Shown here: in pieces, positions 32,298 to 52,176 of the stretch | Position numbering within the stretch: position 1 is the stretch's first letter | Layout: every line of letters begins with the position of its first letter | Assembly (NCBI RefSeq): GCF_016802865.1 | Contig: NZ_JAEVHM010000002.1 | Span: forward strand, 62,001 to 126,000 | Reading direction: 5' to 3' | DNA length: 64,000 bases | DNA from: Micromonospora parastrephiae | GTDB taxonomy: Bacteria; Actinomycetota; Actinomycetes; Mycobacteriales; Micromonosporaceae | Position numbers and translations under genes: made by a program | Notes under the pieces: model-generated | Told to the model about the DNA's origin: nothing | Database searches by the model: none | Seen by the model: only the letters and a program-made list of their open reading frames with translations

Positions 32298-32311
32298 TCG
32301 ATGCTCTGCTG

Positions 32312-35973: not shown

Positions 35974-36335
35974 CTATCCCAGCTTCCCGCATGGACTAGG
36001 ACGGACCGTCAGGTTCTGGACAACTTCGCGTCACAGAACGCAACAAAGTGGGCCGCAAGTCCCGACAGAGCACCGAGCTCTGGGTACACGACCTCGCAGT
36101 GTGGACCGGCGAATGGGCCAACCATCGGACCCCCGGCCACCAGTCAACCCATGAGCCATAACCCGGAGGCACCCTCTCGCCACGCGGCACCGGCAGCGGT
36201 CGGCCCAACTACCAGCCAGCAAGCCCGCTCGGAACCGCAATCAGGTCACTCAGCCGGGCGGTCCATGACGGTCCCGAACCCGGAACAAGCCGCACTGTTT
36301 CCCCGTCTGCTCCCAATGTAAGCGGCACTTAGGGC
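35974..36335. other. Degenerate region left of the island
   Basis: Short frames only. One runs from ATG 36151 (56 codons) and ends at 36321 inside a TGCTCCCAATGTAAG segment that is shared with 52107-52121, next to the intact tRNA. It looks like the worn end of an older element. No intact gene. Confidence 0.4.
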
Positions 36336-36370
36336 GAAGCCCGTTACCGACCACTCCGGTAACGGGCTTC
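36336..36370. terminator. Copy of the tRNA-Val terminator (left)
   Basis: 14-bp perfect stem GAAGCCCGTTACCG / CGGTAACGGGCTTC with a 7-base loop. Nearly the same hairpin follows the intact tRNA at 52143-52175. Confidence 0.75.
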
Positions 36371-36433
36371 TGACCTGCATGAACTGAGAGTGGGCGATGC
36401 TGGTATCGAACCAGCGACCTCTTCGGTGTGAAC
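36371..36433 (-). repeat. att repeat A: decapitated tRNA-Val(CAC) 3' part
   Basis: 63 bp matching the intact tRNA copy at 52177-52239 except for two bases outside the tRNA. It contains the T-arm, acceptor 3' strand and anticodon 3' side but no 5' half, so it is not a tRNA. Probably the outer left junction of the integrated elements. Confidence 0.85.
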
Positions 36434-36516
36434 TCTCGGCAAGCAGATCGGATCGGCCTTGATGCGAGGTCATGTGGCCCGCTGAGGCGCCTCTCGGCTC
36501 GGTCCGGCTGGCACGG

Positions 36517-36542
36517 TTGCTGTACTTCGCTGCTGTACTTCT
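36517..36542. repeat. Arm-type direct repeats beside att A
   Basis: GCTGTACTTC at 36519 and again at 36532, a 13-bp period. Matching pairs flank att B on both sides. Expected for integrase arm-binding sites. Confidence 0.55.
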
Positions 36543-36564
36543 GACGCCCTGGGGGCATCCGCAC

Positions 36565-37675
36565 TCAAACCAGGCCGAGGCCAATGGCGAAATCGGTGAT
36601 CGTCGTAGGCGCGTCTGCCCGTTGGGCAACCTCGGTGACGACACGCCGCGCCGCCGGCCGGTGCCGTATCTCCGATGGTGCGATGTTGTCGACCAGCAGC
36701 AGGCTTCGAGCCGCCGTGATCACGTCGCCGAGCTGAAGGTACGCGCGAGCGACGTCGACGAGGTGCGCAGCACGATGCTCAAGCGGCAACCATCGCCATC
36801 CCTCTCGTTCGACGACCTTCTCGTGCTGCGTAACCGCGCGCTTTCCGTCGCCCAGCTCGATTGCTGCGGCAACTCGGGCCAGATCAACGGCCACAGGCCC
36901 GAAGGCGGTGTGATGGTGATCGTGTCCATCGCCCACCCGCACAGCCATCTCCGTCGCCTCGTTCAGCAGGCCAACAGCGTCGCGGTCGTTGCCCGCTCTG
37001 GCCGCTGTTAGGGCAGCCTGCACGAGCAGCGATCCACACAGGGACAGCTCCTGCGGTGTGCCGTCGTTCGGATCCGCTGGAGCAATGCGGTACGCAGCGC
37101 TCAGCATTACCGACTTCGCCCGAGCCGACGCGCGCAACACCTGGCCGAGCTGCACCGCCGCACAGGCCAGTAGCACCGGATCACCGATGGCAGCGGACAT
37201 TGCCCGATCGGCAGCCAGCCAGGCGAGGCTTGCCTCGTCCAGCTTCACCAGCAGCGCCGCCGTCACCCGATACGCCTCCACCACGGCCGTACGGTCAGCG
37301 CCCGACTCCTGTGCTTGAAGCCGTTGAACACCTGTCAACAACGCTGGCAGCTGCTCAATCAGCTGCGGATACCGTGCGTGCTGGTAGGTAGTCCACGCGT
37401 GCCCGATCGCCCGGCCCAACTGATCAGGTGACGCATCCCGGCAAGCAATCGGGTGGCTGCTCGCCATCCCGTACGTGGACAGGGCCGCCCGAATGAAGAA
37501 CCGCGGCGACCTCCCGGATCGTCGAAACCCGCTCCAGTGACCGCACCCCGCGCTCGACCTTGTCCACCCAACTCTTGGACTTCCCCAGTCGATCCGCGAA
37601 CGACTGCTGCGACAGCTTGCGCCGTGCTCGCAGGTAAGCTATGCGCCGACCGATCGGAACCGAATCACCGGTCAC
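36565..37675 (-). pseudogene. XRE-TPR regulator, broken copy of the gene at 41920
   Basis: The N-terminal frame from GTG 37675 has the XRE HTH (LSQQSFADRLGKSKSWVDKV, as in the intact paralogue). After REVAAVL about 26-28 codons are deleted and the frame shifts. The remainder continues in another frame as AALSTYGMASSHPI, QHARYPQLIEQLPALLTG and the TPR-like end EHRAAHLVDVARAYLQLGD. The first frame dies at 37424. Both halves align well with 41920-43119, so this is a decayed duplicate. Confidence 0.85.
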
Positions 37676-37826
37676 GACGCCACCGCCGATCCGGCACCGC
37701 ACGCGTCGTTTCCTCCACCGGAATGCGCTCCGCCTCGGCCTGCTCCAGAATTCGCTTCCTGGCTGCTTCCTGCTCCGCAGCCTGCACCCGCTCGCCTGTC
37801 CTGTCGCCTGCGGCGTTGTCACTCAT
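37665..37826 (-). CDS. Small basic helical protein paired with XRE-TPR (copy 1)
   Basis: 53 aa from ATG 37826 with GGAGG at good spacing. Sequence features: ERVQAAEQEAARKRILEQAE, RIPVEET and a terminal RRWRRDR. Its stop overlaps the GTG start of the XRE gene by 11 bp. A homologue with the same overlap is at 43106-43276, so the pair is conserved. Likely a coiled-coil partner or antagonist of the XRE protein; function unknown. Confidence 0.7.
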   Translation of the reverse strand: MSDNAAGDRTGERVQAAEQEAARKRILEQAEAERIPVEETTRAVPDRRWRRDR

Positions 37827-37937
37827 CCCTGCCTCCGCAGTGCTTCCGCTCCTGCCTCATGTGGGATCTACTCTGGTGACCGCGCGGCTACGCTCGGAAG
37901 CACCTCGATGCTTTCAGGACCTTTCACAGGGGATCCG

Positions 37938-39017
37938 ATGGATGACCTCGGTGCGCAATTGAGGCAGGCTCGGCTTGAGGCCGGCGTGACACTGGCCTCC
38001 ATCGCGGCCCGTACCTGCTACTCGGCCTCGCATCTCAGCAACGTCGAAGCGGGACGCCGGACCGCGACGCCGGACATTGTGCTCGCGTATGCGCGAGCGT
38101 TGGGAGAAGCCGACGTGAGACGCAGAGACCTCCTCGCCGCAGCCACCATCGGCCCGATCGCCGCCAACGACTTGATCCGTAACGGCTTCACCGCCGCCCT
38201 CGCCGGGCACCGCGACGACGTCGATCGTTGGCGTGACCGCGTCGACCAGTACGGCCGCGAATACATGGAGATCGGCGCGGACTCCCTTCAAATCAGGCTC
38301 GCCAACGACCTCGTCGTCATGCAACAGCAGCTCGACAGCCCGATCATGTGGGCCACAGCAGCCCGCGCCCTGACCACCTACGGAAAGACGACGAAGGATC
38401 CCACCGAGGCCATCGGCTGGTACGACACCGCCCGCGTCACCGCCGACCGCTCCAACGACCTCGCTGTCCGCGTCTGGGTACGCGGTCGAGCCGCCATCGC
38501 CCTGGCCTACGAGGGCGCCGCACTCCCCGTCGCACAGCGCTACGCGGACGAAGCCATTGGCCTGTCTGACCGTCCGTCACTCGGCCAACTCCAAGCGCTG
38601 ATGGCCCGCGCCCACATCGCCGCCGGACGAGGCGACACCGCCGCAGCGATCGCCGCCGACGAAGACGCCCAACGGATCTTCGACCACACCGCCTCACCCG
38701 ACGACGAGACCTCCGACGCCGCCGTGCCCGCCTGGCGCATGGCGACCTTCCGATCCATGCTCTACGCCCGCCTCGGGCTCATCCATCGCGGCGAGCAGGC
38801 CCAGATCGACGCCGACCGTCTCCGGCCCGCCTCGCTGACCCGCTTCGCCACCCATGTCGAACTTCATCGCGCCCTCATGATGGCCAAAGCCGGCGACGGA
38901 CCCGGCGGACTGGCACACGCCCGACGGGCATGGGCTGCACTACCGACTAACCGCCGCTCGCAAACCCTCGGCCTCGTCCTCCTTGAAGTCGAGAGAGCCG
39001 CGGGGCAGCGACGCTGA
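37938..39017 (+). CDS. XRE-family regulator with C-terminal TPR-like domain
   Basis: 359 aa from ATG 37938 (AGGGGA upstream). HTH residues about 4-60: GAQLRQARLEAGVTLASIAA and CYSASHLSNVEAGRR. The rest is helical repeats (ADEAIGLSDRP, ALMARAHIAAGRGDTAAAIA) as in actinobacterial XRE-TPR proteins. Divergent from copy 1 of the small protein/XRE pair. Confidence 0.88.
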   Translation: MDDLGAQLRQARLEAGVTLASIAARTCYSASHLSNVEAGRRTATPDIVLAYARALGEADVRRRDLLAAATIGPIAANDLIRNGFTAALAGHRDDVDRWRDRVDQYGREYMEIGADSLQIRLANDLVVMQQQLDSPIMWATAARALTTYGKTTKDPTEAIGWYDTARVTADRSNDLAVRVWVRGRAAIALAYEGAALPVAQRYADEAIGLSDRPSLGQLQALMARAHIAAGRGDTAAAIAADEDAQRIFDHTASPDDETSDAAVPAWRMATFRSMLYARLGLIHRGEQAQIDADRLRPASLTRFATHVELHRALMMAKAGDGPGGLAHARRAWAALPTNRRSQTLGLVLLEVERAAGQRR

Positions 39018-39026
39018 ACCAGCGAA

Positions 39027-39173
39027 CGACCCCTCGTTTGTAAGCTCTGTGCACCTCGTCCGCGCTCGTTCGGGACCGGCTGCACGCTCGAAGCTTCGTC
39101 AATGCCCGCACTCGTCAGCGCGCTCGCGTCCGGCGCGGTTGCTGTCAGCAATGTTGTCGACAGCCATCTCGCA
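39027..39173. repeat. Dispersed non-coding repeat, copy 1
   Basis: Begins CCCTCGTTTGTAAGCTCTGTGC and ends with tandem TTGCTGTCAGCAATGTTGTC then GACAGC. A diverged copy with the same start and end motifs is at 45509-45636; the end motif alone is at about 15975-16026. No coding potential is obvious. Confidence 0.55.
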
Positions 39174-39507
39174 GGCGACGCCGGACGACCCCCGCCGGGG
39201 GGGGATGCGGTGTCAAGCTGTCGGCCGCCGCCAGCCGGTGGCAAGCCGCGTCGGCGAGCAGGTAGCGAGCGCCGTCGGTTCACGTTCGGGGTCAACCCGC
39301 ACCGGTGCTCGTGCTGCCTTCTTGCTGCCTCGCTGCCTGACGCCAGCTCTTAAGATTGGTAAAGATGACCGAAGCGCCCGGAGGATCCCGGGCGCTTCGT
39401 CCGTTAGCGGGCCTGCGGGGGGCCTGACCAATACCCGCTTGGTTAGGCCGGTTCGCCACCCAACAGTTCGACTGGCCGTTCGTCTACAGTCCTCCCCGGT
39501 CCGGCGC
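39174..39507. other. Gap with a stem-loop
   Basis: No gene seen in 334 bp. Contains the stem-loop at 39370-39399. Confidence 0.5.
39370..39399. terminator. Stem-loop between the XRE-TPR and FG-GAP genes
   Basis: Perfect 12-bp stem CGAAGCGCCCGG / CCGGGCGCTTCG, 6-base loop. Could end the FG-GAP transcript from the right. Confidence 0.65.
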
Positions 39508-40635
39508 TCAGATGGTCGGGAAGAACCAGAGGATATCGTTCAGGCCGTTGGCGTTCGACACGACGATGTCGTCCCGCCCGTCCCCGGTGAAGTCATCCAC
39601 CACGGGCGCGCCGGGAATACCGGGCGTGGCCAGGGTGATCGGGGCCTGGAAGGTGCCGTCGCCGTTGCCGAGCAGCACCAGCACGCCGTAGTAGCCGCCG
39701 CCGAACGCGAGATCCGCGCGACCGTCGCCATCGAAGTCACCGGCGGCGGCGGTCCGCTCACCTTGCCCGAAAGCGAGCGTGCGCTCCTCGGTGAAGGTGC
39801 CGTCGCCGTTGCCCGCCAGATAAAGGGCGTCGCCCCACTCGGATCCCGGTACGAGCGCGTCGACCCGACCGTCGGTGTTGAAGTCGGCGAGCATGGCCGG
39901 GCTGCGGGGAGTCGGTAGTTCGTGCCACACCCCGGGCGCGAAGGTGCCGTCGCCCGCGTTCAACCAGGTCACCACCCGGCCATAGCCGCCGCCGGTCGCC
40001 ACCAGGTCGGTGTGGCCGTCCCCGTTGAGGTCTGTCCCGGCCAGCCCGTCATTGGCAGTCGGCTCGGCCGCTAGAGTCGCCCCCGGTGTGAACCGGCCCC
40101 GTCCGTCATTGCGCAGCACCTGGACCTGCTCTCGCCCCGCGAGGGTCAGCGCCAGGTCGACGTCTCGGTCACCGTCGAGGTCGGCCGGCACCAGGTTTCG
40201 GGGGATGCTGTTCGGGGCCAAGTCGATCACCCGGGGCGCCCTGAACCGGCCGTCGCCTCGGCCGAGAGCGACCACCACCTGATCGAAATCGATGTCGACG
40301 ACCGTGGCGACCAGGTCCCGCCGGCCGTCACCGTCAACGTCGGCGATGGCCACCGACCGCGGCGCGCCGCCGAGGGCCACCACGGTCCCGGCCCGGAAGC
40401 CGGTCGCCCCCTGGCTGAGCAGGATCGAGACCCTGTCCGCGTCCGTCTGCGCAACCGCCAGGTCGGGCCGCGCGTCGCCGTCGAGGTCGCCGGTGGCCAT
40501 GGCGCCCGGCACGGCGCCCGTCGCCACGTCGACCGGCGGGCCGAAGTTGGCGGTCCCGGCGGTGGCGGCGGCCGGGGTGACGGCCGTCAGCAGGGCGACG
40601 GCCAGACAGGGCACCCCGAGGGTACGAAATCGCAT
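39508..40635 (-). CDS. Secreted FG-GAP/VCBS repeat protein
   Basis: 375 aa from ATG 40635 (GGGAGGA upstream). Signal peptide ends ATAGTA. About seven beta-propeller repeats with calcium-binding DxDGDGxxD-type loops (DLDGDARPDLAV, DVDGDGRRDLVA, DFDGDGRADLAF, DDFTGDGRDDIV). A full integrin-alpha-like propeller, probably surface or secreted, with unknown ligand. It is cargo inside module 1 of the island. Confidence 0.9.
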   Translation of the reverse strand: MRFRTLGVPCLAVALLTAVTPAAATAGTANFGPPVDVATGAVPGAMATGDLDGDARPDLAVAQTDADRVSILLSQGATGFRAGTVVALGGAPRSVAIADVDGDGRRDLVATVVDIDFDQVVVALGRGDGRFRAPRVIDLAPNSIPRNLVPADLDGDRDVDLALTLAGREQVQVLRNDGRGRFTPGATLAAEPTANDGLAGTDLNGDGHTDLVATGGGYGRVVTWLNAGDGTFAPGVWHELPTPRSPAMLADFNTDGRVDALVPGSEWGDALYLAGNGDGTFTEERTLAFGQGERTAAAGDFDGDGRADLAFGGGYYGVLVLLGNGDGTFQAPITLATPGIPGAPVVDDFTGDGRDDIVVSNANGLNDILWFFPTI

Positions 40636-40719
40636 ACGTGATCCTCCCGTGTAGACCCGGACCGGTCCGTTCCCGGCCTGGGCAGGGACCAGCCTCGCGC
40701 GCGGTGGGATAAGGCCGGG

Positions 40720-41550
40720 TTAAGCCTGAGCTAACGCCCACAACGAGGGCCTGGCTCGGACGGAGTCCGCCCAGGACCGCTCGTGTGAAGCGGCTGACGG
40801 GAATCGAACCCGCACTCTCAGCTTGGGAATCCGGTTTGAGTGGCGGCCCACGGGCGTCGTGCCAATGGTCACGGGAGCATGGACGCGGCGGCTAAGCGCT
40901 GCGGCGGGCCTCCGCTCGCCGTTGTCGACCGCTGCATCGGGCACGGATCGGGCACGGTTCCCAGTCAGGCTGAGGCTGGAACCCTGAACCCCTCTCGCCT
41001 GGCATCGGCCATATCCAATTGGACGGATCGGTCGGCTGACGTGGGCGAAGTCTTCCGTTGACTTACAGCGGTTGACGGCACTTGTTGGTATCAGTTGCGC
41101 CCGACGATCTTCGCGGCCGTCGTCCGTTGCCTCTGCCCGCGCGGCAGGCCGGCACCTACTTGAAACACCAATGATCCCGGTGACCGTGCCGACGAGGCCA
41201 CTGACGGTCGCCAGCTTCGCAGAGGCCCCGGTCCAGATGCCCTTGGACTTCTCGCGCCAGCCGAGAGACCACCAGTCATGCCCGAACTTCTGCCACTTGT
41301 GCTGCCGAAGGTGACAGCCCATGACCAGGCCGGTCGAGTTGTTGCGGCAGAACTCCACAGCGCCGCCGCGCTTCCGGTTGATCGCTCCGCAGTACACCGG
41401 AGCCTGGAACAGCACGAAGAGGATCAAGAGGCCGATGAGAACCGCGTAGATGCCGGGACCAAACGCGTTGCTACCAAGGGACAGGGGGAGTACAGCCAGG
41501 ACGCCGTACCCCCAGTACCGCCAGAGGCTCGGCTTGCTGCGAGATGCCAT
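40720..41550 (-). CDS. Membrane protein, C-terminal part chimeric with att debris
   Basis: ATG 41550 opens a convincing N-terminal part with two membrane helices (VLAVLPLSLGSNAFG, AVLIGLLILFVLFQAPVY), then VYCGAINRKRGGAV and a soluble segment to about residue 130. Beyond that the frame is low quality and reads through a tRNA-Gly fragment (40790-40829), giving VRVRFPSAA. The original C-terminus was probably lost by recombination. Confidence 0.5.
   Translation of the reverse strand: MASRSKPSLWRYWGYGVLAVLPLSLGSNAFGPGIYAVLIGLLILFVLFQAPVYCGAINRKRGGAVEFCRNNSTGLVMGCHLRQHKWQKFGHDWWSLGWREKSKGIWTGASAKLATVSGLVGTVTGIIGVSSRCRPAARAEATDDGREDRRAQLIPTSAVNRCKSTEDFAHVSRPIRPIGYGRCQARGVQGSSLSLTGNRARSVPDAAVDNGERRPAAALSRRVHAPVTIGTTPVGRHSNRIPKLRVRVRFPSAASHERSWADSVRARPSLWALAQA
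40790..40829 (-). repeat. 3' half of tRNA-Gly(CCC), att-like remnant
   Basis: Forty bases on the minus strand read TTCCCAAGCTGAGAGTGCGG then TTCGATTCCCG and CAGCCGCT: anticodon loop CCC, variable loop, T-arm and acceptor strand. The 5' half is missing. This is what an element inserted in tRNA-Gly would carry. Confidence 0.7.
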
Positions 41551-41728
41551 GACTGCGAAGGGTACCTATTTGATCGCGGTAGGTGAAGATCCTTGCATCG
41601 GCAGCTTGGGAGCCCGTGCATGCGACGTGATGCCTGGTGGGAAACCAATGAGTACTTCCGGCCGGGATCTGTACTTTGCTGCTGTACAGGCAGCAAGAAG
41701 GCCACCCCCAATGAATGGCAATGACCTT
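41551..41728. other. Non-coding left arm of att B
   Basis: No gene. TCTGTACTTT at 41668 and GCTGTACAGG at 41681 repeat the 13-bp period of the arm sites at 36519 and 41877. Confidence 0.5.
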
Positions 41729-41791
41729 TGACCTGCACAAACTGAGAGTGGGCGATGCTGGTATCGAACCAGCGACCTCTTCGGTGTGAAC
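41729..41791 (-). repeat. att repeat B: decapitated tRNA-Val(CAC) 3' part
   Basis: 63 of 63 bases match the intact tRNA copy at 52177-52239. There is no 5' half. Homology with copy A continues rightwards for more than 100 bp, through the arm sites. Confidence 0.88.
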
Positions 41792-41876
41792 TGTCGGCGA
41801 GCCGGTTAAATCGGGCTCGACACGAGGTCAGACGGCCTGCTGACGCGCTTCTCGGCCTGGTTCGGCTGGCACGGTT

Positions 41877-41899
41877 GCTGTACTTCGCTGCTGCACTTC
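41877..41899. repeat. Arm-type direct repeats right of att B
   Basis: GCTGTACTTC at 41877 and GCTGCACTTC at 41890, 13-bp period. Confidence 0.55.
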
Positions 41900-41919
41900 T
41901 CTGCCGCATGGAATACCGC

Positions 41920-43119
41920 TCAGCCCACCCCGAGCGTGGCGGCGAGCTGGGCGATCGTGGCCGGGGCGCGGGGGTGACGGGCAACCTCGGCGACGACGTC
42001 CCGGGCGGCGGGCCGGCACCTGATCTCGGCCGGTGCGGTGCGCTCGGCCTCGGTCAGCACGCGGGCGGCGCTGCCTGTATCCCCGGCCTGCAGGTAGGCA
42101 CGCGCGACGTCGAGCAGGTGCGCGGCGCGGTGTTCGGCGGGTAGCCACCGCCAGCCGCCCCGCGCGGTGGCTTTCTCGTGCCAGGCGATCGCCTCCTGGG
42201 TGTCGCCGATTTCGACGGCTGCGGTGGCGCGGGCCAGGTCGACAGCGGTGGGACCGAACCCGGTGCGGTGGTGGTCGTACCCGTCGCCGACCCGCTCCGC
42301 CATACCGGCGGCCTCGTCGAGCAGCTCGCCGGCGGCGGCCTCGTTCCCGTCCTGCGCCGCCGCCAGGCCGGCTTGGATGACCAAGGCTCCGCACAGGGAC
42401 AACTCCGCAGGCGTGCCGTACTCGATCACAGGCGGAGCGATCCGATACGCGGCACCGAGCGTCACCGACTTCGCCTCCCGCGCCCGGCCGAGCGCGCGCA
42501 ACACCTGCCCAAGCTGCACGCCCGCGGCGGCCACCAACTCCCGGTCACCGGTGGCGGCGAGCATCGCCCGATCCACGGCCAACCAGGCCAGCTCGGCGTC
42601 GCCGAGCTTGACCAACAGAGAAGCGATTATTCGGTACGCCTCGACGAGCGGCACCCGACCCGCCACCGACACCTCAGCATGGGCGCGCAGCGCACCGGTG
42701 AGCAGGTCCGGCGCCAGGTCGACCACCTGCGGATAGCGGGCGTACTGGAACGTCGACCACGCTAACCCCACATCCCGCAGCATCCGGTCCACCGGCAATA
42801 TCGGGCTGCCTGCCGGCCTGCCCAACGGGATCTCGTAGCGGGACAACGCTGCTCTGATCCGCTCGACGCCGTCGACGCGACTTGTTGACTGGACCGGCGC
42901 AGCGTCCTGGCCGACAAGCGCGGCGGTGTCGATGCGGAGTACCCGCGCTATTTCCTGAAGTGTCGACAGCTTGTCCAGCCGCCGAACGCCGCGTTCGACC
43001 TTGTCGACCCAACTTTTCGACTTGCCGAGCCGGTCGGCGAACACCTGCTGCGACAGCTTCCGCCGACCCCGCCAGTACGCCACCCGCCGCCCGACCGGCA
43101 ACAGCTCAACGCTCGCCAC
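41920..43119 (-). CDS. XRE-family regulator with C-terminal TPR-like domain (intact copy)
   Basis: 399 aa from GTG 43119. XRE HTH (LSQQVFADRLGKSKSWVDKV, ERGVRRLDKLSTLQEIARVL), a linker with RIRAALSRYEIPLGRP, then TPR-like helices (WSTFQYARYPQVVDLAPDLL, AEHRAAHLLDVARAYLQAGD). It lies right after att B, as the broken paralogue lies after att A. Probably controls the element or the divergent gene at 43448. Confidence 0.9.
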   Translation of the reverse strand: MASVELLPVGRRVAYWRGRRKLSQQVFADRLGKSKSWVDKVERGVRRLDKLSTLQEIARVLRIDTAALVGQDAAPVQSTSRVDGVERIRAALSRYEIPLGRPAGSPILPVDRMLRDVGLAWSTFQYARYPQVVDLAPDLLTGALRAHAEVSVAGRVPLVEAYRIIASLLVKLGDAELAWLAVDRAMLAATGDRELVAAAGVQLGQVLRALGRAREAKSVTLGAAYRIAPPVIEYGTPAELSLCGALVIQAGLAAAQDGNEAAAGELLDEAAGMAERVGDGYDHHRTGFGPTAVDLARATAAVEIGDTQEAIAWHEKATARGGWRWLPAEHRAAHLLDVARAYLQAGDTGSAARVLTEAERTAPAEIRCRPAARDVVAEVARHPRAPATIAQLAATLGVG

Positions 43120-43276
43120 GACGCCACCGCCAATCCGGTTTGGCTCGCGTGATTTCCTCGACCGGAATCCGATCCGCCTCCGCCTCGGCCAGAAGCCGAC
43201 GCTTCGCCGTCTCCCGCTCCGCCGCCTGGATCTGTTCGCCCCGGCTGATCGCCGGCTCATCGCCCTTACTCGACAC
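43106..43276 (-). CDS. Small basic helical protein paired with XRE-TPR (copy 2)
   Basis: 56 aa from GTG 43276. Contains GEQIQAAERETAKRRLLAEA, RIPVEEITRAKPDW and a terminal RWRRGER; clearly homologous to 37665-37826. Its stop overlaps the XRE GTG start by 14 bp. Conservation of peptide and overlap in both modules supports a real gene. Confidence 0.7.
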   Translation of the reverse strand: MSSKGDEPAISRGEQIQAAERETAKRRLLAEAEADRIPVEEITRAKPDWRWRRGER

Positions 43277-43447
43277 GTCACACCCCCACCACCTCAGGTG
43301 ACGGAGAAGCTACGGAAAGCTATAGACAGGCCCCATGGCCAGCGGTCATGTCACGGTGACATGGGACGGCTCGACCGGCGCGGATAGTCGCCCTACGCTC
43401 ATCACTCGAACACCATTAGTAGTCGGAATGTGACGCTGGGAGCCGCC

Positions 43448-44869
43448 GTGCTGCTCGATCCACTGCGAATACCGGAGACCGTGTGGTCGCACAGCGAGGT
43501 ACTCACCGCTCTGGCCACCCGGGACATCGGCGGGCTGTTCCATTGGATCAGCCGCCTCACCGGTGCGAGTCAGAGCCGGATCGGGGCCGCCGTCGGCTTG
43601 GAACAGGGCTACGTCAGCCGGGTCATGGCCGGACGCAAGGTCACCTCGATCGACCTCCTGGAGCGCATCGCCGACGGATGCCGGATGCCCGATCAGGCAC
43701 GAACCACGATGGGCCTGGCATCCCGACAGGCCGCGCCGCCGGCCGATCCCGGCCGGCTCACCCCCGATCGGCCCAGCGAATCGCCGGTCAACCGGACCTG
43801 GAAGGACGACGTACGCAGTGCCGCAGAGCTTTGGCGAGGTGACGTGAACCGTCGAGACGTACTCCGGCAGGTGGCCTTCAGCTCCGCCGGCTCCACCCTT
43901 CCGGCGTTGCGCTGGTTCACGGCCCCCGATCCGGCCCCGGTGACCCAGCCCGGCCGTGATGCCGTCGGTCAACCGCAGATTGACACCATCCGCGCGATGA
44001 CCGCGACCTACCGCGGGCTGGACAACCAGTACGGCGGCGGGCACGCCCGCGACACTGTGGCCCGCTACCTCCATCAGGAGGTGACTCCGCTGCTCACCGA
44101 CGGCCGGTACGACCACCCGATCGGTCAGCGGCTGCTCAGTGCCGCTGCCGAACTTGCCCAACTCGCCGGCTGGCAGGCGTACGACACCGCCGAACACGGC
44201 ATTGCCCAGCGTTACCTCACCCTCGCCTTGGACTTCGCCCACGCCGCAGGAGACAACGGCCTCGGCGCGGAGATCCTCGCGGCGATGAGCCACCAAGCCA
44301 CCTACCTCGGCCACACCACCACCGGCCTCGACCTCGCCCGCGCCGCCGGCCGGACCGCCCGCCGCGCCGGAATTGCGGTCCTGATCGCCGAAGCCCATGT
44401 CATGGAAGCCCACGCCCTGGCCCAAGCCCGTGACGAACGGGCTTGCGCCGTCGCCCTGCACCGGGCAGAACAAGCCCTCGACCGGGCCGACCGCAGCGCC
44501 GACCCGCAATGGCTCAGCTATTTCGACGAGGCGTACCTGGCGGCCAAGTTCGGCCACTGCTTCCTCGCCCTCGGCCGCAACACCCACGCCGAACGCTTCG
44601 CCGCCCGATCCCTCCGCATGGACAACCGATACGTACGGGGCAGAGCCTTCAACCTGGCCCTGCTCGGCAGCGTCCACGCCCAACAGGGCGAACCCGACCG
44701 AGCCTGCGCCATCGGCGCGGAAGCCTTGACCCTGACCACCCAGCTCCGCTCCGCCAGAGCCGTCCGCTACCTCCGCGACCTGCAAGGCCAGCTCGCCCCA
44801 CACCGGCGACTACCCGCCGTCCGGCACTTCACCAGCCGCGTCGACGCCACCCTCGGCCCTCGACGCTGA
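43448..44869 (+). CDS. XRE-type HTH regulator with long TPR-like C-terminus
   Basis: 473 aa from GTG 43448 (GGGAG five bases upstream; GTG 43430 is the alternative). HTH about residues 35-80: RLTGASQSRIGAAVGLEQGY. Then WRGDVNRRDVLRQVAFSSAG and TPR-like helices (HGIAQRYLTLALDFAHAAGD, GHCFLALGRNTHAERFA). This architecture is common in Streptomyces and relatives, often next to Nudix or kinase genes. Divergent from the small protein/XRE pair. Confidence 0.88.
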   Translation: MLLDPLRIPETVWSHSEVLTALATRDIGGLFHWISRLTGASQSRIGAAVGLEQGYVSRVMAGRKVTSIDLLERIADGCRMPDQARTTMGLASRQAAPPADPGRLTPDRPSESPVNRTWKDDVRSAAELWRGDVNRRDVLRQVAFSSAGSTLPALRWFTAPDPAPVTQPGRDAVGQPQIDTIRAMTATYRGLDNQYGGGHARDTVARYLHQEVTPLLTDGRYDHPIGQRLLSAAAELAQLAGWQAYDTAEHGIAQRYLTLALDFAHAAGDNGLGAEILAAMSHQATYLGHTTTGLDLARAAGRTARRAGIAVLIAEAHVMEAHALAQARDERACAVALHRAEQALDRADRSADPQWLSYFDEAYLAAKFGHCFLALGRNTHAERFAARSLRMDNRYVRGRAFNLALLGSVHAQQGEPDRACAIGAEALTLTTQLRSARAVRYLRDLQGQLAPHRRLPAVRHFTSRVDATLGPRR

Positions 44870-44872
44870 CCC

Positions 44873-45439
44873 TCACAGCTCTCCCTTAGCCTTACGCGCG
44901 ACCAACTCCAGCACCGCGATTACGGTGCCGGCACCGACGATCTCGCCCCGAGCCACAAGCTGGTACGCCTCGTCGAGCGGAACCCAGGCAATCTGCTCAG
45001 CTTCGTTCACGTCCACGGGCGCGCCGATGCGCTCGGCCTGCCGGGCGAGGAAGAGCAGATTCTCTGCGTCGGCAGTGCCGACCCACGGTTGGAAGGACAG
45101 CAGCGGCTCAACCCCCCGAGGGCGCCAACCGGTCTCCTCCTCGACCTCCCGCATCGCACAGACCGCCGGCTGCTCACCCTCATCGACGTAACCGCCGGGC
45201 AGCTCCCACACCCAACGGTCGAAGACGAACCGGTGCCGCCGCATCAAGAGCAGGTGCTCCTGGTCGTCGACCACCGCCACCATGGCCGACCGGGGAGCAC
45301 GGATCACGTACTGCTCGAACCGAACCCCGTCGGGCAGCTCGACCTCCGCGATACTCAGCCGTGCCCGGCGTGTGTCGTCCACGACCCGCTCGCCGTGGAT
45401 GGTCCATCTGGTCAACTCCGTCGCCTGCTTCTCCACCAC
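44873..45439 (-). CDS. Nudix hydrolase
   Basis: 188 aa from GTG 45439. The Nudix box is complete: GGYVDEGEQPAVCAMREVEE then ETGW (GX5EX7REUXEEXGU). The N-terminal part resembles ADP-ribose pyrophosphatases. Convergent with the XRE regulator, 3 bp between stops. The pSAM2 immunity factor Pif also carries a Nudix motif, so a role in element biology is possible, but a housekeeping ADP-sugar hydrolase is just as likely. Confidence 0.92.
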   Translation of the reverse strand: MVEKQATELTRWTIHGERVVDDTRRARLSIAEVELPDGVRFEQYVIRAPRSAMVAVVDDQEHLLLMRRHRFVFDRWVWELPGGYVDEGEQPAVCAMREVEEETGWRPRGVEPLLSFQPWVGTADAENLLFLARQAERIGAPVDVNEAEQIAWVPLDEAYQLVARGEIVGAGTVIAVLELVARKAKGEL

Positions 45440-45508
45440 CCCGCCAGTATCCGCACCGACTCCCTCACCATGCTCGACAGGCAGCACCTGCTGGCCGACC
45501 ACCCGATC

Positions 45509-45636
45509 CCTCGCTTGTAAGTTCTGGGCGCTGTGTCCGGCAGGGTTCGTCCGCGTCCTCGGGCAACTGGCCGCGCCCGGCCACCGCTGGCCGCTCTCGT
45601 CCCGGCCGGTTGTTGTCGCCGTTGCTGTTGACAGCT
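45509..45636. repeat. Dispersed non-coding repeat, copy 2
   Basis: Begins CCTCGCTTGTAAGTTCTGGG, shares TTCGTCCGCG and CTCGGG in the middle, and ends TTGTTGTCGCCGTTGCTGTT then GACAGC. Lies after the Nudix gene and 32 bp before a membrane-protein gene. See copy 1 at 39027. Confidence 0.55.
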
Positions 45637-45667
45637 ACCCGCTGGCAAGCGCCTGCACGATGGACCG

Positions 45668-46054
45668 GTGACGACTGCCTCTGCCGTCCTGGCCCTCGTG
45701 GGGCTTGCCATCGAGATTTGCGGCCTCCTCTGGATCATCGCCGTCGCCATAGCGACGAGCCGGCGGCTGCGGGAGGACATCAGACTCATCGAGTGGACGA
45801 CGTATGAGAGCGTCAAGCGCCAGAGGGCCGGCGAGGACTCAAAGGTGGTAGACGCCTGGCGAGCCGCCGAACTGGCCAAGCGCGGCATCACACCGGACAC
45901 CATGAACGGCCACGAGCCATACACCCTCCGTCGTGTCCTCGCTGCCATGGCATCAGGCGAGGCAGGGTCATTCGTCGGAGGCGGTGCCCTCATCCTTGTA
46001 GGCACGCTTGTCCAGGGCGCTGGGCGCATAGCCCAGCTGGTCGCTGCCCTGTAG
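45668..46054 (+). CDS. Small membrane protein with two hydrophobic ends
   Basis: 128 aa from GTG 45668. N-terminal helix VLALVGLAIEICGLLWIIAV, a charged middle (RRLREDIRLIEWTTYESVKR) and a C-terminal Gly-rich helix (GSFVGGGALILVGTLVQGAG). Typical of cargo in actinobacterial elements; no function recognised. Confidence 0.75.
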   Translation: MTTASAVLALVGLAIEICGLLWIIAVAIATSRRLREDIRLIEWTTYESVKRQRAGEDSKVVDAWRAAELAKRGITPDTMNGHEPYTLRRVLAAMASGEAGSFVGGGALILVGTLVQGAGRIAQLVAAL

Positions 46055-46103
46055 AGGTCGCCAACCACTTAGTTGAGTCGAAGCGGAATTTAGGCGCTGA
46101 AAC

Positions 46104-46577
46104 TCAGGTAGGCGCGAGCCATCGGGTCACTGTGTCGGTGAAGACCACCTGATATGGAAGACCTCGTAGATCTTCTGCGGTCACATCCAGGCCGCGAGCC
46201 CGAGCCAACTCGGCCAGCCACGACCAAGGATGTTCCTCTGCGGACTCTTCGGCGTCGTCGGGGAGCACGGCGTTCAGAACGTTCGGGGTGATGCTTTCCC
46301 GAGTCTCGACGAGCGGAGCGACACCACCCGGAACGCCGGTTGATCTAGCAGTGAGAGTGAACCCACGATCCGCGTGCAGGAGCACGCGCCGACCGTCATC
46401 CAGAATCGCGAGCTCACTGACGATGAAGTTCCGGGTACTCGCATTCTCGGGGTGCTCCCCTCGGAGATCGCAGCTGGCAACTAGGCCAACGATGCGACCG
46501 GGCTCGACCGGGGGAAGATTTTCGGGAGCACGGTAGGCGCCCGGGTACGGGCGCCAACCGGCTTGACTGCTGCTCAC
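46104..46577 (-). CDS. Hypothetical protein
   Basis: 157 aa from GTG 46577 (GGGAG upstream). Soluble and acidic. Features: GRIVGLVASCDLRGEHP, VSELAILDDGRRVLLHADRG, SWLAELARARGLDVTAEDL. Lower third-position GC than the chromosome, in keeping with transferred DNA. Family not recognised. Confidence 0.7.
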   Translation of the reverse strand: MSSSQAGWRPYPGAYRAPENLPPVEPGRIVGLVASCDLRGEHPENASTRNFIVSELAILDDGRRVLLHADRGFTLTARSTGVPGGVAPLVETRESITPNVLNAVLPDDAEESAEEHPWSWLAELARARGLDVTAEDLRGLPYQVVFTDTVTRWLAPT

Positions 46578-46910
46578 TATCTGACTCCCGAGAATCCCGT
46601 GATCGTTCCGGCTGTATCTAACTAAACCGTGTCACCTGATCACCGGTTACGGTCGTCGCCCGGACGGCGGCAGCTTGCGATCAGGGGCTACACGCGCGGT
46701 TCACGGCACCCCCGAAGTACCATCCAGAAGGGTCGGCGACACCGATCAGATCGACATCAGTAGCACCCTCCAGCCGACGGTCGTGCTGTTTGAGCAGTTG
46801 GTCCTCGCGTTAGATCTGCGGCCGGATCCGCCTCCTGCGAGGTAGTCGCCCGAGCCCGAGGCAACCGTCAACCACCGGCAACCGAGAGAATCGCACCAGT
46901 ACGCCTGCAG
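46578..46910. other. Gap with a possible coding tail
   Basis: No intact gene. One plus frame ends STLQPTVVLFEQLVLALDLR and a stop at 46843-46845, which could be a gene tail. Confidence 0.3.
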
Positions 46911-47482
46911 TTGCGTAGGACACTGATTGTGGTGACGGCCGTGATCCTCGGGCTGGTGTCGGCGAGCGGGCCGGCGGCGGCGCAGCAGCGGCCACGAGGG
47001 ATCCCTGACCGAGCCATGTTGCAGCCGGACGATCTCGGCGGGGCGCGCCGGGGCCGGTGGAGGACGGGCTGGTGTGGTCGCTCCTACCCCAGCCGTGCGC
47101 GGACACGCCGGTGCCGCAGCCTGTCGTGAGCCGCACTGAGGCAGGCGATCTCGGTACCCGATTTCGGATCTACGAGAACGCCGCCTGGTACCGCGGCGAT
47201 GGGGCACACGCGTACATCACCGAGCTGAAGGCGCAGCTCGCCCGGTGCGGGGCGGGCGGCGACGAGGAGGGCTTCGACCCGCTCGCCGAGGACCACCTCG
47301 GGCCGGACACGGTGCTGTTCCTCGGCACCTACGACGAGGGCGACCGCTACGTCGGCTATGTCGCCGCCGCGGTCGGCCACTACGTGGTGGTGGTCATGAT
47401 GTCGGACTCGTACCTGGGGGCGGCCGATTTGACCACGTTGAACGGGCTGGCCAGTGCCGCGATGAGCCGAGCGGCGGCGTGA
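46911..47482 (+). pseudogene. Secreted sensor-like protein, one apparent frameshift
   Basis: TTG at 46911 opens a signal peptide (RRTLIVVTAVILGLVSASGP) and the start of a sensor-like domain (MLQPDDLGG). Near 47040-47050, in GGCGGGGCGCGCC, the frame moves by one and continues VEDGLVWSLLPQPCADT, YENAAWYRGDGAHAYITELK and the C-terminal helix. Joined, it is one exported protein of about 190 aa, similar in layout to PknH-type extracellular sensor domains. Another case of a single missing base. Confidence 0.7.
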
Positions 47483-47499
47483 CGCGGGGAGGCCGGCCA

Positions 47500-47664
47500 T
47501 CTTGAGAGGGCCGACCTCTGGCCATCCGAGTCCGGCGTTTCGAGGGGAAGTGACGCGACGTTGCCGTAGAAGCGGTGGGGGCCGCTGATCACGCGCTCAA
47601 AGGTGTGAAGGTCGAGGGGTTCGGTTAAGTAGGCGTTAGCGTAGGCGGCGTAGCTGCTCAACAC
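47500..47664 (-). pseudogene. Response-regulator receiver domain, C-terminal fragment
   Basis: YANAYLTEPLDLHTFERVIS then HRFYGNVASLP matches the last strand and helix of CheY/Rcp1-like receivers (normally NxYLxKPxD). The conserved Lys is Glu here and the phosphoacceptor part is absent. Confidence 0.5.
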
Positions 47665-48159
47665 ATCCGCGTCAAAAGTGGAGGGCCCGGAACGACGGCC
47701 GGCTTACGGTCCAGGTGCTGGGACTGAGACTCAGTCCGTTGACGTGGAGACCTGAACTCCTGACGGTCTGCATCATCGACGCCGAAGTTTTCGATGCGGT
47801 CCTCAAGAACATGGTGCGAAAAGGACTGAAAGGAACTCTCGTCGTCGGTCGCGAGGGACAGGGCCTGCCGTTCGACCAAAAGACTGGTGCTTGACCCAGT
47901 GTGATCCCAGCCGCCTCGACGTGCAGCGAGCCGCCCGTGTCGACACCTCCAGGTTGGCCAAAGGGGTCACCACAGAGGACGCGCTGTTCACGGCGTCGCG
48001 AGTGGGATCGGTTTCTCAGATGACGGAACTGCGGCGGACTTCAGCAAGCTCACCCGCAACGCTCCACATCGATTTACAGCACCTGCAGACGCAGCGTTAG
48101 GCAACCCGAGACGCCCGCCGGCACCAGCCACCCTGGGAACAACGCCGCCCGACCACTTC
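47665..48159. other. Degenerate stretch, no gene recognised
   Basis: AT-richer than its surroundings. Short frames on both strands only. Confidence 0.45.
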
Positions 48160-48369
48160 GCCCCTCACTGGGAGGTCACACCGTGCCCCTTGACCGCATC
48201 ACCACAGGTCGTCAACGGACTGACCGACAGCCCGATCCCGTACGTCCCCCCGCTCGGTTGGGTGGCGGTGCTCGGCGGCACGACACTGCTGGCGCTGGCA
48301 ACCACGGTGTGGCCCGTCCGACGGCTGCTCAGCGCACCTCCGATCCACAACATCGGTGTAAAGGAATAA
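48160..48369 (+). pseudogene. FtsX-like ABC permease, C-terminal fragment
   Basis: One frame reads LTDSPIPYVPPLGWVAVLGG, a hydrophobic helix, then VWPVRRLLSAPPIHNIGVKE and a stop at 48367. This matches the last membrane helix and tail of MacB/FtsX-type permeases. The rest of the gene is absent. Confidence 0.4.
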
Positions 48370-48383
48370 GTCGAACACCGGCA

Positions 48384-48422
48384 ACCGTGCCGCCTTCGTG
48401 GGCGTCGCGGAGGCGGCACGGT
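48384..48422. terminator. Bidirectional stem-loop
   Basis: 12-bp perfect stem ACCGTGCCGCCT / AGGCGGCACGGT, 15-base loop, placed at the 3' ends of the permease fragment and the LPVTG gene. Confidence 0.7.
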
Positions 48423-48433
48423 CGCCTGGCGTC

Positions 48434-49651
48434 TCAGCTACGGGTGGACCCGACGTCCTCGGGCGGCACCAGGATCATCCGGCGACGCCAGGCAGCGAGG
48501 ATCAACACGCCTCCGGCCGCCAACGCCGTCATGCCGATCCCGCCGACCAACCCGGCCCGCGGTCCGGTGACCGGCAACCCGCCGTCACCGCCACCGCCGC
48601 CGCCACCCTTCGCGGCCAGCACCACGGCGAACCCGTCACGATTGTCACCGGGGTCCACGTCGGCCACCCGTACGGCGACGGCGTTCGCGGGCAGGTCGGT
48701 TCGCGTAGGCGTGGAGCGGTTGGTCGTCGACTGCTCGGCGAGGCCCTCCACCCGCACGATGCCGCCCTGCAACGTCGCCGGCGCGCTGGCGGATGACGCA
48801 GTCGTCACCAGGTTGTACAGCTCGACCGCCGAGTAGATCGTGTCGTTCGGGTCGGTGTCCTCGGCGGCCGGAACGAGTGTGAGGCGCTGGTAGGTGCAGA
48901 CGGCCGATCGCCCGGCGTCGGCGAGCACACACTGTTCCGGCTGCCTGGTGAAGGTCACACCCTTGGGCAGACGCAGCGTGACCCGCACTCCGCTGACCGT
49001 TCTCCGGCCCTGGTTGGCGACGGTGTGCCACACGGCGCCCGTCTCACCCGGGTACAGCGTCCCGGTGGGCGTCGGCATGCCGTCGGCACCCATCCGCACG
49101 GACTGCTGCACGTCTCGAGCGACCAACGAGAGGTCCGCCTTGGGCTCGTCGACCAGCGTCAGCGGAAACGATCTGGTGTTGTCGGCCGGATTCGCGTCCT
49201 CGTCCGGCCGGATGCGAACTGACGCTTCGAACCTGCCTTCGTAGGGCGTCGTCCCGTAGACGAGCGCGTCTATGGGGACGTCGATGGTTTCGCCCGGCCC
49301 CGGAATCAACTCCGGCGACAGTCGGCAGTAGAACCCGCCGAAATCACCGTCGCACTCCCCCACACCACCCCCGGAATGCCACAGCAGAGAGACCGGTATG
49401 GGGTCAGGGCCCTGCGGTGGCTGACGGACATGGACGACGACGTCGCTCGGGGTCTCGTCCCCCAGGTTGCTGATCTTCAGATAGACAACCTTCCTCTCGA
49501 CCCCCAGCGCGATCCGTGTCCCGGACGCGTCGACCGCGAGGTCTGGACCTTCCTTCGCCGCCTCGGCGGGGGCGGCGAGGACAGCCAACCCGACGAGGAG
49601 GAACAGCGCGGCGGCAACAGTTCGCAACAGCCGCCGACGACCAGAGCTCAT
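48434..49651 (-). CDS. LPVTG cell-wall-anchored surface protein
   Basis: 405 aa from ATG 49651. Signal peptide (LLRTVAAALFLLVGLAVLAA), two or three DUF11/CARDB-like beta domains (DLAVDASGTRIALGVERKVV, NQGRRTVSGVRVTLRLPKGV), a Gly-rich spacer, then LPVTG, a hydrophobic helix and an RRRM basic tail: a textbook sortase signal. No sortase gene is in the window. Cargo of module 2. Confidence 0.9.
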   Translation of the reverse strand: MSSGRRRLLRTVAAALFLLVGLAVLAAPAEAAKEGPDLAVDASGTRIALGVERKVVYLKISNLGDETPSDVVVHVRQPPQGPDPIPVSLLWHSGGGVGECDGDFGGFYCRLSPELIPGPGETIDVPIDALVYGTTPYEGRFEASVRIRPDEDANPADNTRSFPLTLVDEPKADLSLVARDVQQSVRMGADGMPTPTGTLYPGETGAVWHTVANQGRRTVSGVRVTLRLPKGVTFTRQPEQCVLADAGRSAVCTYQRLTLVPAAEDTDPNDTIYSAVELYNLVTTASSASAPATLQGGIVRVEGLAEQSTTNRSTPTRTDLPANAVAVRVADVDPGDNRDGFAVVLAAKGGGGGGGDGGLPVTGPRAGLVGGIGMTALAAGGVLILAAWRRRMILVPPEDVGSTRS

Positions 49652-49911
49652 GGCAGCACCCTTTCAGCAAGCGCGGACAGTGTGGTTGGGAACACTATCG
49701 GCGATCGACCCTGACCACTTCGACCTCTACTGGGAGGTCGAGGCGAAGACGGCGAGCTGCTCAACCGGTCCCGACGCGTCGAGCACGACTACCCGCCGTG
49801 AACCGGTCGTCCCGTGGGAGCTTGACCTCAAGCGCGCTTGAGGTTGCAGGCTAGGCCTGACGGTCCCCGGCCTGGTGGGCCGGCGCTGGAGTGCCACGCG
49901 AGAGGGGATCC
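49652..49911. other. Gap with a short partial match to 48148-48179
   Basis: A frame here (PDHFDLYWEVEA, about 49711-49742) shares a short segment with 48148-48179 on the other side of the LPVTG gene. No intact gene. Confidence 0.35.
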
Positions 49912-50826: not shown

Positions 50827-50831
50827 GCGGC

Positions 50832-51512
50832 GTGCTGATCGAAGTCTTCTACGACGTGCTCTGCCCATGGTGCTACATCGGCAAACATCGGCTGCAACGG
50901 GTCCTTGCGGATTTCCCCGGCCGAAACGAGGTTCAGCTGCGGTGGCGCAGCTACCAGCTAGCACCGGACGAGGGGCGAAGCCCTGGCCCGACCGCCGCCG
51001 AGGCGATGGCCTCCTGGACCCCACCAAACCAACTACCCGGGCGGCTGGCCCTGATCGCGCGGCTCGGCGCGGACCTGGGCCTGGCTATTGACCTCGACAA
51101 GGCCCGTCCCGTCAACACCTTCGACGCGCATCGCCTGACCCACTTCGCGGCCGACCACGACCGGTCCCGAACGCTGGTCGAGGCGCTGCTGCGGGCCTAC
51201 CAGACGGACGGGCGAAACGTCGCCGACCACCTCGTCCTGCTGGAGTTGGCGCAGGAGGTGGGCCTGCCCGAGGATGAGGCAGGCACGGTGCTGGCCGGTC
51301 ACAGATATGCCGACGCCGTCACCGCGGATCAGCGCCGCGCTGCCGAGTTGCGGGTGAGTGGCGTACCGACACTCGTCATCGACGGCGGCCGACCGTTCTC
51401 GGGCATGCAGCCGCCGGAGGTGATACGCGGCGGGTTGGACCGGGCCGCCCACACATTGGCCGACGCTGCGTCCGGCATCGCCAACCTCCACAACATCATC
51501 CTCACCGGCTGA
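50832..51512 (+). CDS. DsbA-family thiol oxidoreductase (FrnE-like)
   Basis: 226 aa from GTG 50832. Thioredoxin-fold active site VLCPWCYIGKHRL with CPWC; the cis-Pro loop is VSGVPTLVID and the end holds GMQPPEVI. No signal peptide, so cytoplasmic like FrnE. Typically a polyketide-related or stress disulfide isomerase. Confidence 0.92.
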   Translation: MLIEVFYDVLCPWCYIGKHRLQRVLADFPGRNEVQLRWRSYQLAPDEGRSPGPTAAEAMASWTPPNQLPGRLALIARLGADLGLAIDLDKARPVNTFDAHRLTHFAADHDRSRTLVEALLRAYQTDGRNVADHLVLLELAQEVGLPEDEAGTVLAGHRYADAVTADQRRAAELRVSGVPTLVIDGGRPFSGMQPPEVIRGGLDRAAHTLADAASGIANLHNIILTG

Positions 51513-52175: not shown

Positions 52176-52176
52176 C

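Follow-up and report, generated by a model that had tools for sequence, protein, structure and literature searches.

Repeat pairs with a 13-bp period as probable arm-type sites of a tyrosine integrase subfamily at tRNA-Val(CAC) in Micromonospora parastrephiae

We found that the pairs of short repeats with a 13-bp period beside the tRNA-Val(CAC) att cores of Micromonospora parastrephiae are very probably arm-type sites (P and P') belonging to a single subfamily of tyrosine integrases, which AICEs and their stripped relatives carry. The first-pass annotation of the window (the whole stretch of 64,000 nucleotides analysed) had proposed such arm sites, and sequence comparison supports this reading best: the pairs occur on both sides, their spacing is nearly fixed, they often lie right after the integrase gene, and their presence tracks integrase similarity. 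The reading accounts for the layout of the window from 36 to 52 kb.

The paired decamers had been reported at 36519/36532, 41668/41681, and 41877/41890, and all three positions as well as the 13-bp spacing were confirmed. The pairs and the adjoining region are as follows.

36519..36541, + strand: arm pair of P' type on the right side of att A, GCTGTACTTCGCTGCTGTACTTC; the tRNA copy has its T-arm at exactly -118
41668..41690, + strand: weaker arm pair of P type on the left side of att B, TCTGTACTTTGCTGCTGTACAGG; T-arm at +91, followed by terminator-like sequence
41877..41899, + strand: P'-type arm pair right of att B, with one change in the second repeat; T-arm at exactly -118
36461..36543, + strand: end of the P' region including the arm pair; the C101 (tRNA-Lys) element has a P' region that matches it at 87% identity across 83 bp

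Right of att A, both decamers are exact copies of GCTGTACTTC. Right of att B, the decamer at 41877 is again GCTGTACTTC and that at 41890 is GCTGCACTTC (1 mismatch). The pair left of att B consists of TCTGTACTTT (41668, 2 mismatches) and GCTGTACAGG (41681, 3 mismatches), the likeness being mainly in CTGTAC; as in relatives, a terminator-like sequence follows this P pair. We ascribe its T-arm distance of +91, instead of the commonest +79 to +82, to surplus tRNA flank retained at att B. With up to 1 mismatch, GCTGTACTTC occurs 9 times in the window against 1.46 expected from shuffles, and none of 100 shuffles reached 9.

Genome-wide, we counted 6 copies of the 21-nt pair at up to 3 mismatches and 0 of its reversed control; the single decamer is present 39 times exactly, against 18 for its reversed control. 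The decamer by itself was rejected as the feature, being too common. Since the pair is rare and the decamer fairly common, the feature is the pair, not the decamer. A decamer common throughout the genome had been named beforehand as refuting arm sites; this applies to the single decamer and not to the pair. A genome search for further pairs with an adjoining integrase had also been suggested, and it was productive: apart from the three pairs in the window, two delimit an element at tRNA-Lys that carries a tyrosine integrase, and one lies about 800 bp from an integrase relic. tRNA cores are present at 5 of the 6. When up to 2 mismatches are allowed, the pair is present in 131 of 160 genomes of the genus, our own included; the control gave 0 matches in all 160.

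The att cores are 52-nt copies, of which a third, at 52188-52239, lies within the intact tRNA-Val gene. The following features define the array.

36382..36433, + strand: att A core, made up of the tRNA-Val(CAC) 3' half with flank; its end is at the anticodon loop
41740..41791, + strand: att B core, likewise the tRNA-Val(CAC) 3' half with flank
52196..52268, - strand: intact tRNA-Val(CAC), the target gene
36382..41791, no strand: segment A, distance of the att cores 5358 bp, both ends with GCTGTAC-type arms
41740..52268, no strand: segment B, distance of the att cores 10448 bp, left end with a GCTGTAC-type arm and tRNA end with the CTGCTCCCAAT type
36336..36369, no strand: terminator-like inverted repeat left of att A; a similar one lies behind the intact tRNA (52143-52176)
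41920..43281, - strand: XRE-type regulator beside the P' end of segment B
43430..44869, + strand: NsdA-family regulator of segment B (382 bits, cut-off 75)
44873..45502, - strand: Nudix hydrolase of segment B

Because att A and att B both have a pair of the P' end type on their right, the segments lie in tandem and in a single orientation; these tandem segments at tRNA-Val(CAC) take up 36.4-41.8 kb and 41.8-52.2 kb. That two element ends meet at att B, as had been claimed, is borne out by a P-type pair on the left (T-arm at +91, with the terminator-like stretch between) and a P'-type pair on the right (T-arm at -118). The stretch 41779-45639 of segment B has 87% identity to a stretch located 10-14 kb from tRNA-Val in another genome (G143; L238:5448-9322). 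In segment A, the relative of the XRE-type regulator (36565-37822) is divided over two frames.

A Pfam scan of the 20 ORFs of segments A and B gave no match to integrase, RepSA, or FtsK, further similarity searches gave no significant integrase or RepSA match to either segment, and the PF00589 search of the whole genome listed no integrase on the window's contig (C112). Segment A has att sites at both ends and, as far as searched, no integrase, and the AICE gene set (integrase, replication, and transfer) was not found in segments A and B. The left border of the array was not found; a far-left gene of the window is, as judged by eye, distant from tRNA-Val in the four relatives compared (G046, G053, G056, and G151). 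Further to the left, the window contains two small remnants.

16543..16653, + strand: relic of the pair-linked integrase family (37 residues, 57% identity, E of 1.5e-5 against three sequences)
16655..16674, + strand: 20-nt exact piece of the tRNA-Val 3' part (T-arm)

We read the T-arm piece as a putative decayed fourth att site.

A second type of arm-like repeat is found at the tRNA end of segment B.

52102..52123, + strand: second arm-like pair, CTGCTCCCAAT twice with an 11-bp period
36307..36317, + strand: single CTGCTCCCAAT left of att A, corresponding in position to the second copy of the tRNA-end pair

In 21 of 30 loci, our own included, the T-arm is located exactly +106 from the CTGCTCCCAAT pair, and the regions 36300-36433 and 52106-52239 have 91% identity. 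As the CTGCTCCCAAT repeat occurs both at the tRNA-Val end and left of att A, more than one element type seems to be stacked here. Among loci L179-L208, which have this arm type and of which about 1.5 kb upstream was covered, the C101-family profile detected 0 integrases beside the repeat, and the integrases of our genome matched only in L186, on the opposite side of the tRNA. The idea that the CTGCTCCCAAT repeat is an integrase gene end was not borne out.

To place the pair relative to the core, we used 157 sites from 149 loci (160 before 3 duplicates were taken out). The T-arm lies exactly -118 nt from the pair at 33 of the 157 sites (the distal, P' end) and at +79 to +82 at 48 (the tRNA, or P, end); the corresponding means for random positions are 0.02 and 0.08 (2000 draws, maximum 2), in a control that does not cover the kinship of sites related by descent. 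One of the 33 sites (L099) has a P-side T-arm as well, and the tRNA-Lys sites have the T-arm at -111 and +85. The position relative to the core is thus nearly fixed, and the fixed distances of the pair recur at other tRNAs and in other genera. The target tRNAs are those for Arg, Ala, Thr, Val, Lys, and Pro, with nine anticodons, and the tRNA is intact at 45 of 55 P sites versus 0 of 37 P' sites. No T-arm was found at either place at 64 of the 157 sites; 21 of these retain a piece of the anticodon arm at the P' place and 43 are left unassigned. Of 24 loci outside the window, chosen for having at least two pairs, 18 show the order integrase, P pair, and tRNA core. In 14 of the 18, the T-arm is present at both ends of the integrated element, so that sites occur on both sides of the core.

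The pair was also observed to be linked to, and to co-vary with, a particular integrase. The integrase frame ends at most 40 bp before the pair at 35 of 55 P sites. When only sites with sufficient upstream sequence are counted, a same-strand integrase ends within 2.5 kb upstream at 24 of 29 P sites, 3 of 17 P' sites, 5 of 32 unassigned sites, and 0 of 1 double site. Of 52 P sites with at least 250 bp upstream, 10 have no integrase frame ending between -900 and +60; at one of them (L093), the integrase frame runs through the pair. Among loci picked by integrase similarity, all 5 with at least 56% identity carried the pair (the query's own locus and a broken copy are counted among them), as against 0 of 25 with 50% or less. 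The borderline case is an integrase of 54.9% identity, with just a poor pair match about 600 bp away.

Most loci of more distant integrases had no such pair after the stop codon, in a test that is weak, as the true pairs of L250, L251, L252, and L270 are themselves reached by 5.5-12.5% of random windows. Four tRNA-adjacent loci with distant integrases (L257, L258, L266, and L278) do have a post-stop pair, its period being 11-13 bp; 2.5-5% of random windows do as well. The integrase of a circular 14.3-kb Streptomyces plasmid is 42.6% identical to that of L067, and this plasmid has a different pair, GTTGATGTCA, also with a 13-bp period, which flanks the tRNA core, one copy lying after the integrase gene. 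The plasmid shows the both-sides arrangement directly, with another sequence.

All 4 integrases scanned exceed the cut-off for PF14659 and PF00589 (the core-binding and catalytic domains). In the model of the L067 integrase, these domains are preceded by three strands and a helix, a predicted N-terminal part that is conserved. The best structural match of the model is the Tn1549 integrase (Z 19.2, 6.1 A over 287 residues, model residues 65-391); lambda integrase also matches (Z of 16.1 and 9.1 A over 302 residues, model residues 8-391), aligning from residue 8 or 2. When the N-terminal domain was searched by itself for fold similarity, nothing significant was matched. Among 137 ORFs from 18 elements, chosen by a crude procedure, RepSA and PF00589 gave 13 matches each among the 25 of 78 families listed. 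RepSA is named in five elements (L211, L213, L216, L220, and L224), one of which (L216) also has an FtsK-type transfer protein; the C101 element ORFs scanned gave no RepSA match. Complete relatives thus combine the integrase with the RepSA/Prim-Pol replication gene of AICEs, though not every element does. As RepSA elements occur among the carriers, we file the pair under the arm-type sites of an AICE integrase subfamily.

From these observations we infer protein binding, recombination, and the order of insertion. The N-terminal domain of the integrase would hold the pair on each arm, and the core-binding and catalytic domains would exchange strands in the 3' half of the tRNA. As reconstructed from integrated elements, the attP would begin with the end of the integrase frame, followed, usually after 3-30 bp, by the P pair and the terminator. 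Between the start of the P pair and the T-arm of the core there would be about 80 bp (85 in tRNA-Lys elements), with the identity ending at the anticodon loop, and the P' pair would start 118 bp from the T-arm (111 in tRNA-Lys elements). Successive insertions at tRNA-Val(CAC) probably left two tandem segments, and the surviving arms would reveal which ends meet.

An excisionase (RDF) or a host bending protein might bind the pair in place of the integrase N-terminal domain. Any part of the attP complex would show fixed spacing and co-variation with the element, and RDF genes usually adjoin the integrase gene, so that co-variation with the integrase cannot separate the two proteins. RDF sites, however, are usually confined to one arm, whereas the same pair is found in direct orientation on both arms, with one copy right after the integrase gene. 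In addition, the 21-nt repeats of pACPL resemble the arm-type sites of pSAM2, which the integrase was shown to bind (PMC3364876). We therefore regard binding by an RDF or host protein as unlikely. That the repeats are an operator of the adjacent XRE regulators, or that they are scattered over the genome and have nothing to do with recombination, is extremely improbable: an XRE-type gene does lie beside each P' pair in the window, but the pairs are behind the 3' ends of these genes and not at their starts, a position that rules out the operator, the neighbour of a P site is usually an integrase, and the genome holds only 6 pairs, 5 of them at tRNA cores. A phage origin of the arms was also considered and is weak. 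Viral contigs gave one exact match (L279, an integrase end beside a tRNA-Val core), and phage records matched the arm pair only partially (E of 3 or more); all 1062 phage integrase records have less than 60% identity, and the 10 of them listed have at most 33%.

More plausible, if still rather doubtful, is that the copies in the window no longer function as sites and persist today only as passive leftovers of element ends. Integrase was not found in segments A and B, and one of the pairs is degenerate. The two P' regions, that of att A and that of att B, match at 87% across 172 bp, which would be expected of duplicates of one end. On the other hand, the left pair at att B has nothing but the pair in common with the P' copies, and the pair is retained at its distances across tRNAs and genera. 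Passivity could hold for today's copies in the window and would leave the arm-site reading of the family untouched. With no integrase found in segments A and B, the role of the window's own pairs would follow from their relationship to those of other elements.

Under the arm-site reading, a common class of actinobacterial mobile elements, decayed ones included, has in the pair a short DNA signature, tested against controls, for both of its ends, and the near-constant spacing of the pair over different tRNAs and genera suggests a rigid recombination complex. We tentatively propose that the conserved pair, at nearly fixed distances of -118 and +80, may serve integrases of at least nine tRNA anticodons in many genera, making the attP modular, with invariant arms and an exchangeable core. 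If this is true, the arm pair would be a DNA-level address: by it, an incoming element of the subfamily could find and delimit integrase-less segments such as those in the window, and perhaps mobilize them.

For AICEs, both arm sites and accretion are already known. In the abstracts and text passages searched, we found no earlier description of the arm sequence of this pair. CIMEs of ICE families are att-bounded, carry no integrase, lie beside related ends, and are mobilized by a related element. The window segments are likewise att-bounded and adjoin related ends, with integrase not found; they may, however, be plain remnants (defective AICEs). In reports on AICE accretion, for example at tRNA-Arg in Streptomyces and tRNA-Lys in Frankia (PMC9513070, PMC3218068), tandem elements and remnants lie between direct repeats from the tRNA 3' end, as in our array. 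The present case differs in its target, tRNA-Val(CAC), in its host, Micromonospora, and in that two arm-site types are still readable on segments in which integrase was not found. Tn916/Tn1549-type integrases have an arm-binding domain, and the Tn1549 enzyme is the closest to the L067 model; their target sites differ. A pSAM2 cluster has been placed in the Tn916 subgroup (PMC8138268). The arm-type sites of pSAM2 and pACPL are also close. The 21-nt repeats of pACPL flank the attP identity segment, so that repeats lie on both sides of a tRNA attP core, and the repeat is given as GTCACCCAGTTAGT(T/C)AC(C/T)CAG (PMC3364876). By our own reading, it is also a pair, with a 12-bp period. Our elements differ from these in the sequence, GTTGCTGTACTTCGCTGCTGTAC, in the 13-bp period, and in residing at tRNAs for six amino acids.

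Re-reading of the window confirmed the three pairs of direct decamer repeats with a 13-bp spacing that had been proposed around att A and att B. Each att core is a 52-nt copy covering the 3' half of tRNA-Val(CAC) and its flank. The relevant sites are as follows.

16543-16674: tRNA-Val piece next to an integrase relic
36307-36317: single CTGCTCCCAAT repeat, left of att A
36519/36532: pair, exact
41668/41681: pair, weaker, with mainly CTGTAC retained in both repeats
41877/41890: pair, one change
52102-52123: CTGCTCCCAAT pair with an 11-bp period, a second arm-like repeat
52196-52268, minus strand: intact tRNA-Val(CAC) gene

In order from the left, the window contains the tRNA-Val piece and integrase relic, att A, segment A (36382-41791), att B, segment B (41740-52268), the CTGCTCCCAAT pair, a terminator, and tRNA-Val. 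We designate the copy at the tRNA end of an element as the P pair and that at the distal end as the P' pair. Relative to the pair, the T-arm is located at -118 for 36520 and 41878, and at +91 for 41669. At att B, a P pair is on the left and a P' pair on the right, which bears out the proposal that two element ends meet there. att A is preceded by the CTGCTCCCAAT repeat and a terminator and followed by a P' pair, and the piece at 16543-16674 may represent a fourth att site that has decayed. Farther left of att A (20071-32475) are DUF1996, xylose-isomerase-like, ABC transporter permease, and solute-binding genes, which may be either cargo or part of the chromosome.

The decamer GCTGTACTTC, with up to one mismatch, occurred 9 times in the window versus 1.46 expected. 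The first-pass annotation had held that a decamer common throughout the genome would refute the arm-site reading; this is true of the single decamer (39 exact matches versus 18 for the reversed-sequence control) and not of the 21-nt pair, which with up to 3 mismatches matched 6 times in the whole genome (3 in the window, 2 on contig C101, and 1 on contig C57) versus 0 in the control. With up to 2 mismatches, the pair was present in 131 of 160 Micromonospora genomes (own included; control 0 in all 160), and record titles among the matches listed covered many actinobacterial genera.

To describe the geometry, we used 160 pair sites from loci L029-L178 and the window, minus 3 duplicates (157 sites in 149 loci). 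In a single orientation, the T-arm was at exactly -118 in 33 sites and between +79 and +82 in 48; in the opposite orientation, 8 scattered matches were seen within 500 bp. Random positions in the same loci, a control that ignores common descent, gave means of 0.02 and 0.08, respectively, with a maximum of 2 over 2000 draws. An intact tRNA was found at 45 of 55 P sites versus 0 of 37 P' sites. In 21 of the 64 sites without a T-arm at either place, an anticodon-arm piece was located at the P' place; five shifted control positions gave 0 or 1 such pieces.

On C101, two pairs 9.8 kb apart delimit a tRNA-Lys(TTT) element carrying a tyrosine integrase; one pair is between the integrase and the tRNA, and the other, past the distal tRNA copy, lies in a region 87% alike to the P' region of the window over 83 bp. 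At L029:10216-13922, this element also encodes an N6-methylase/HSDR_N protein together with a specificity subunit resembling MAD5 (the latter far below the cut-off), perhaps a methylation-associated defence system. The C57 pair is about 800 bp behind an integrase relic, and ARAGORN detected no tRNA in the 16 kb examined there.

Among pair sites with at least 2.5 kb of upstream sequence, a same-strand integrase ended within 2.5 kb upstream at 24 of 29 P sites and 3 of 17 P' sites, at 5 of the 32 unassigned sites, and not at the one double site; the integrase frame ended at most 40 bp before the pair at 35 of 55 P sites. In the reverse test, similarity to the C101 integrase was used to pick 30 loci from 60 genomes of the class. 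The pair was found in 5 of 5 loci with at least 56% identity (one being C101 itself and one a broken copy) and in 0 of 25 with at most 50%; in L262 and L274, the locus did not include the gene end or flank. A Nonomuraea integrase 54.9% identical to the integrase of locus L067 had only a poor pair match about 600 bp off. A circular Streptomyces longwoodensis plasmid encodes an integrase 42.6% identical to that of L067, and GTTGATGTCA pairs with a 13-bp period flank its tRNA core on both sides (T-arm at +74 and -137); these arms share the plan of the pair elements, and their letters differ. This circular record (NZ_CP108973.1, 14.3 kb; L315 and L316), in which attP is intact and has an arm pair of its own, looks like an excised actinomycete integrative and conjugative element (AICE).

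The order integrase, P pair, tRNA core was found in 18 of the 24 non-window loci fetched for at least 2 pairs, where neighbouring pairs were 2.5 to 17.4 kb apart. The distance was very short (2.5-3 kb) in L144 (pairs at 1261 and 3954, reverse strand; integrase between them) and L217, suggesting either minimal elements or composite arrays. Because RepSA and integrase each matched 13 of 137 ORFs from 18 elements, we filed the pair elements with AICEs, some of them stripped; no RepSA was found among the ORFs scanned in the C101 element. Core-binding and catalytic domains are present in the integrase, and its predicted structure places three strands and one helix at the N-terminus, a layout like that of arm-binding domains. 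A fold search with this N-terminal domain alone gave no significant match. Arm-binding domains are treated in passages of PMC8138268.

Among 20 ORFs scanned in segments A and B, none matched integrase, RepSA, or FtsK, and further searches gave no significant integrase or RepSA match inside either segment. Over its left part, which holds XRE, NsdA-type, and Nudix genes, segment B shares 87% identity with sequence close to tRNA-Val in a related genome (G143); passages of PMC3218068 describe nudix genes as frequent in AICEs and an xre-containing cluster in some. An XRE-type regulator gene at 36565-37822 is split over two frames, and its relative at 41920-43281 is in a single frame. Segment A also contains part of a tRNA-Gly(CCC)-like gene, namely its 3' half (40796-40843). 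Elsewhere in the genome, on contig C361, the 3' part of an intact tRNA-Gly(CCC) recurs about 2.5 kb from the gene, which may mark another small integrated element.

The CTGCTCCCAAT pair was present in 39 of 101 Micromonospora genomes (own included; control 0), and 21 of 30 loci, counting the own one, had the T-arm at exactly +106; thus, the two arm types seem to use tRNA-Val in common. No integrase of the C101 family was found beside this pair in related loci.

For the 13-bp-period pair, its sequence, spacing, distribution, and linkage to the integrase were observed directly. Each pair would be held by the N-terminal domain of the integrase, and recombination would take place near the anticodon loop while the arms are held. 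Segments A and B may be the leftovers of successive insertions and deletions. An incoming tRNA-Val integrase of the subfamily could, in principle, excise segment A, whose arms match; segment B, with mismatched arms, is probably a fusion after deletion.

The arm-pair sequence had no match in the literature texts searched, and its spread and spacing were not found in topic listings either. Arm-type sites of AICEs (PMC3364876) and accretion at tRNA genes (PMC9513070 and PMC3218068) are already described in passages of these papers.
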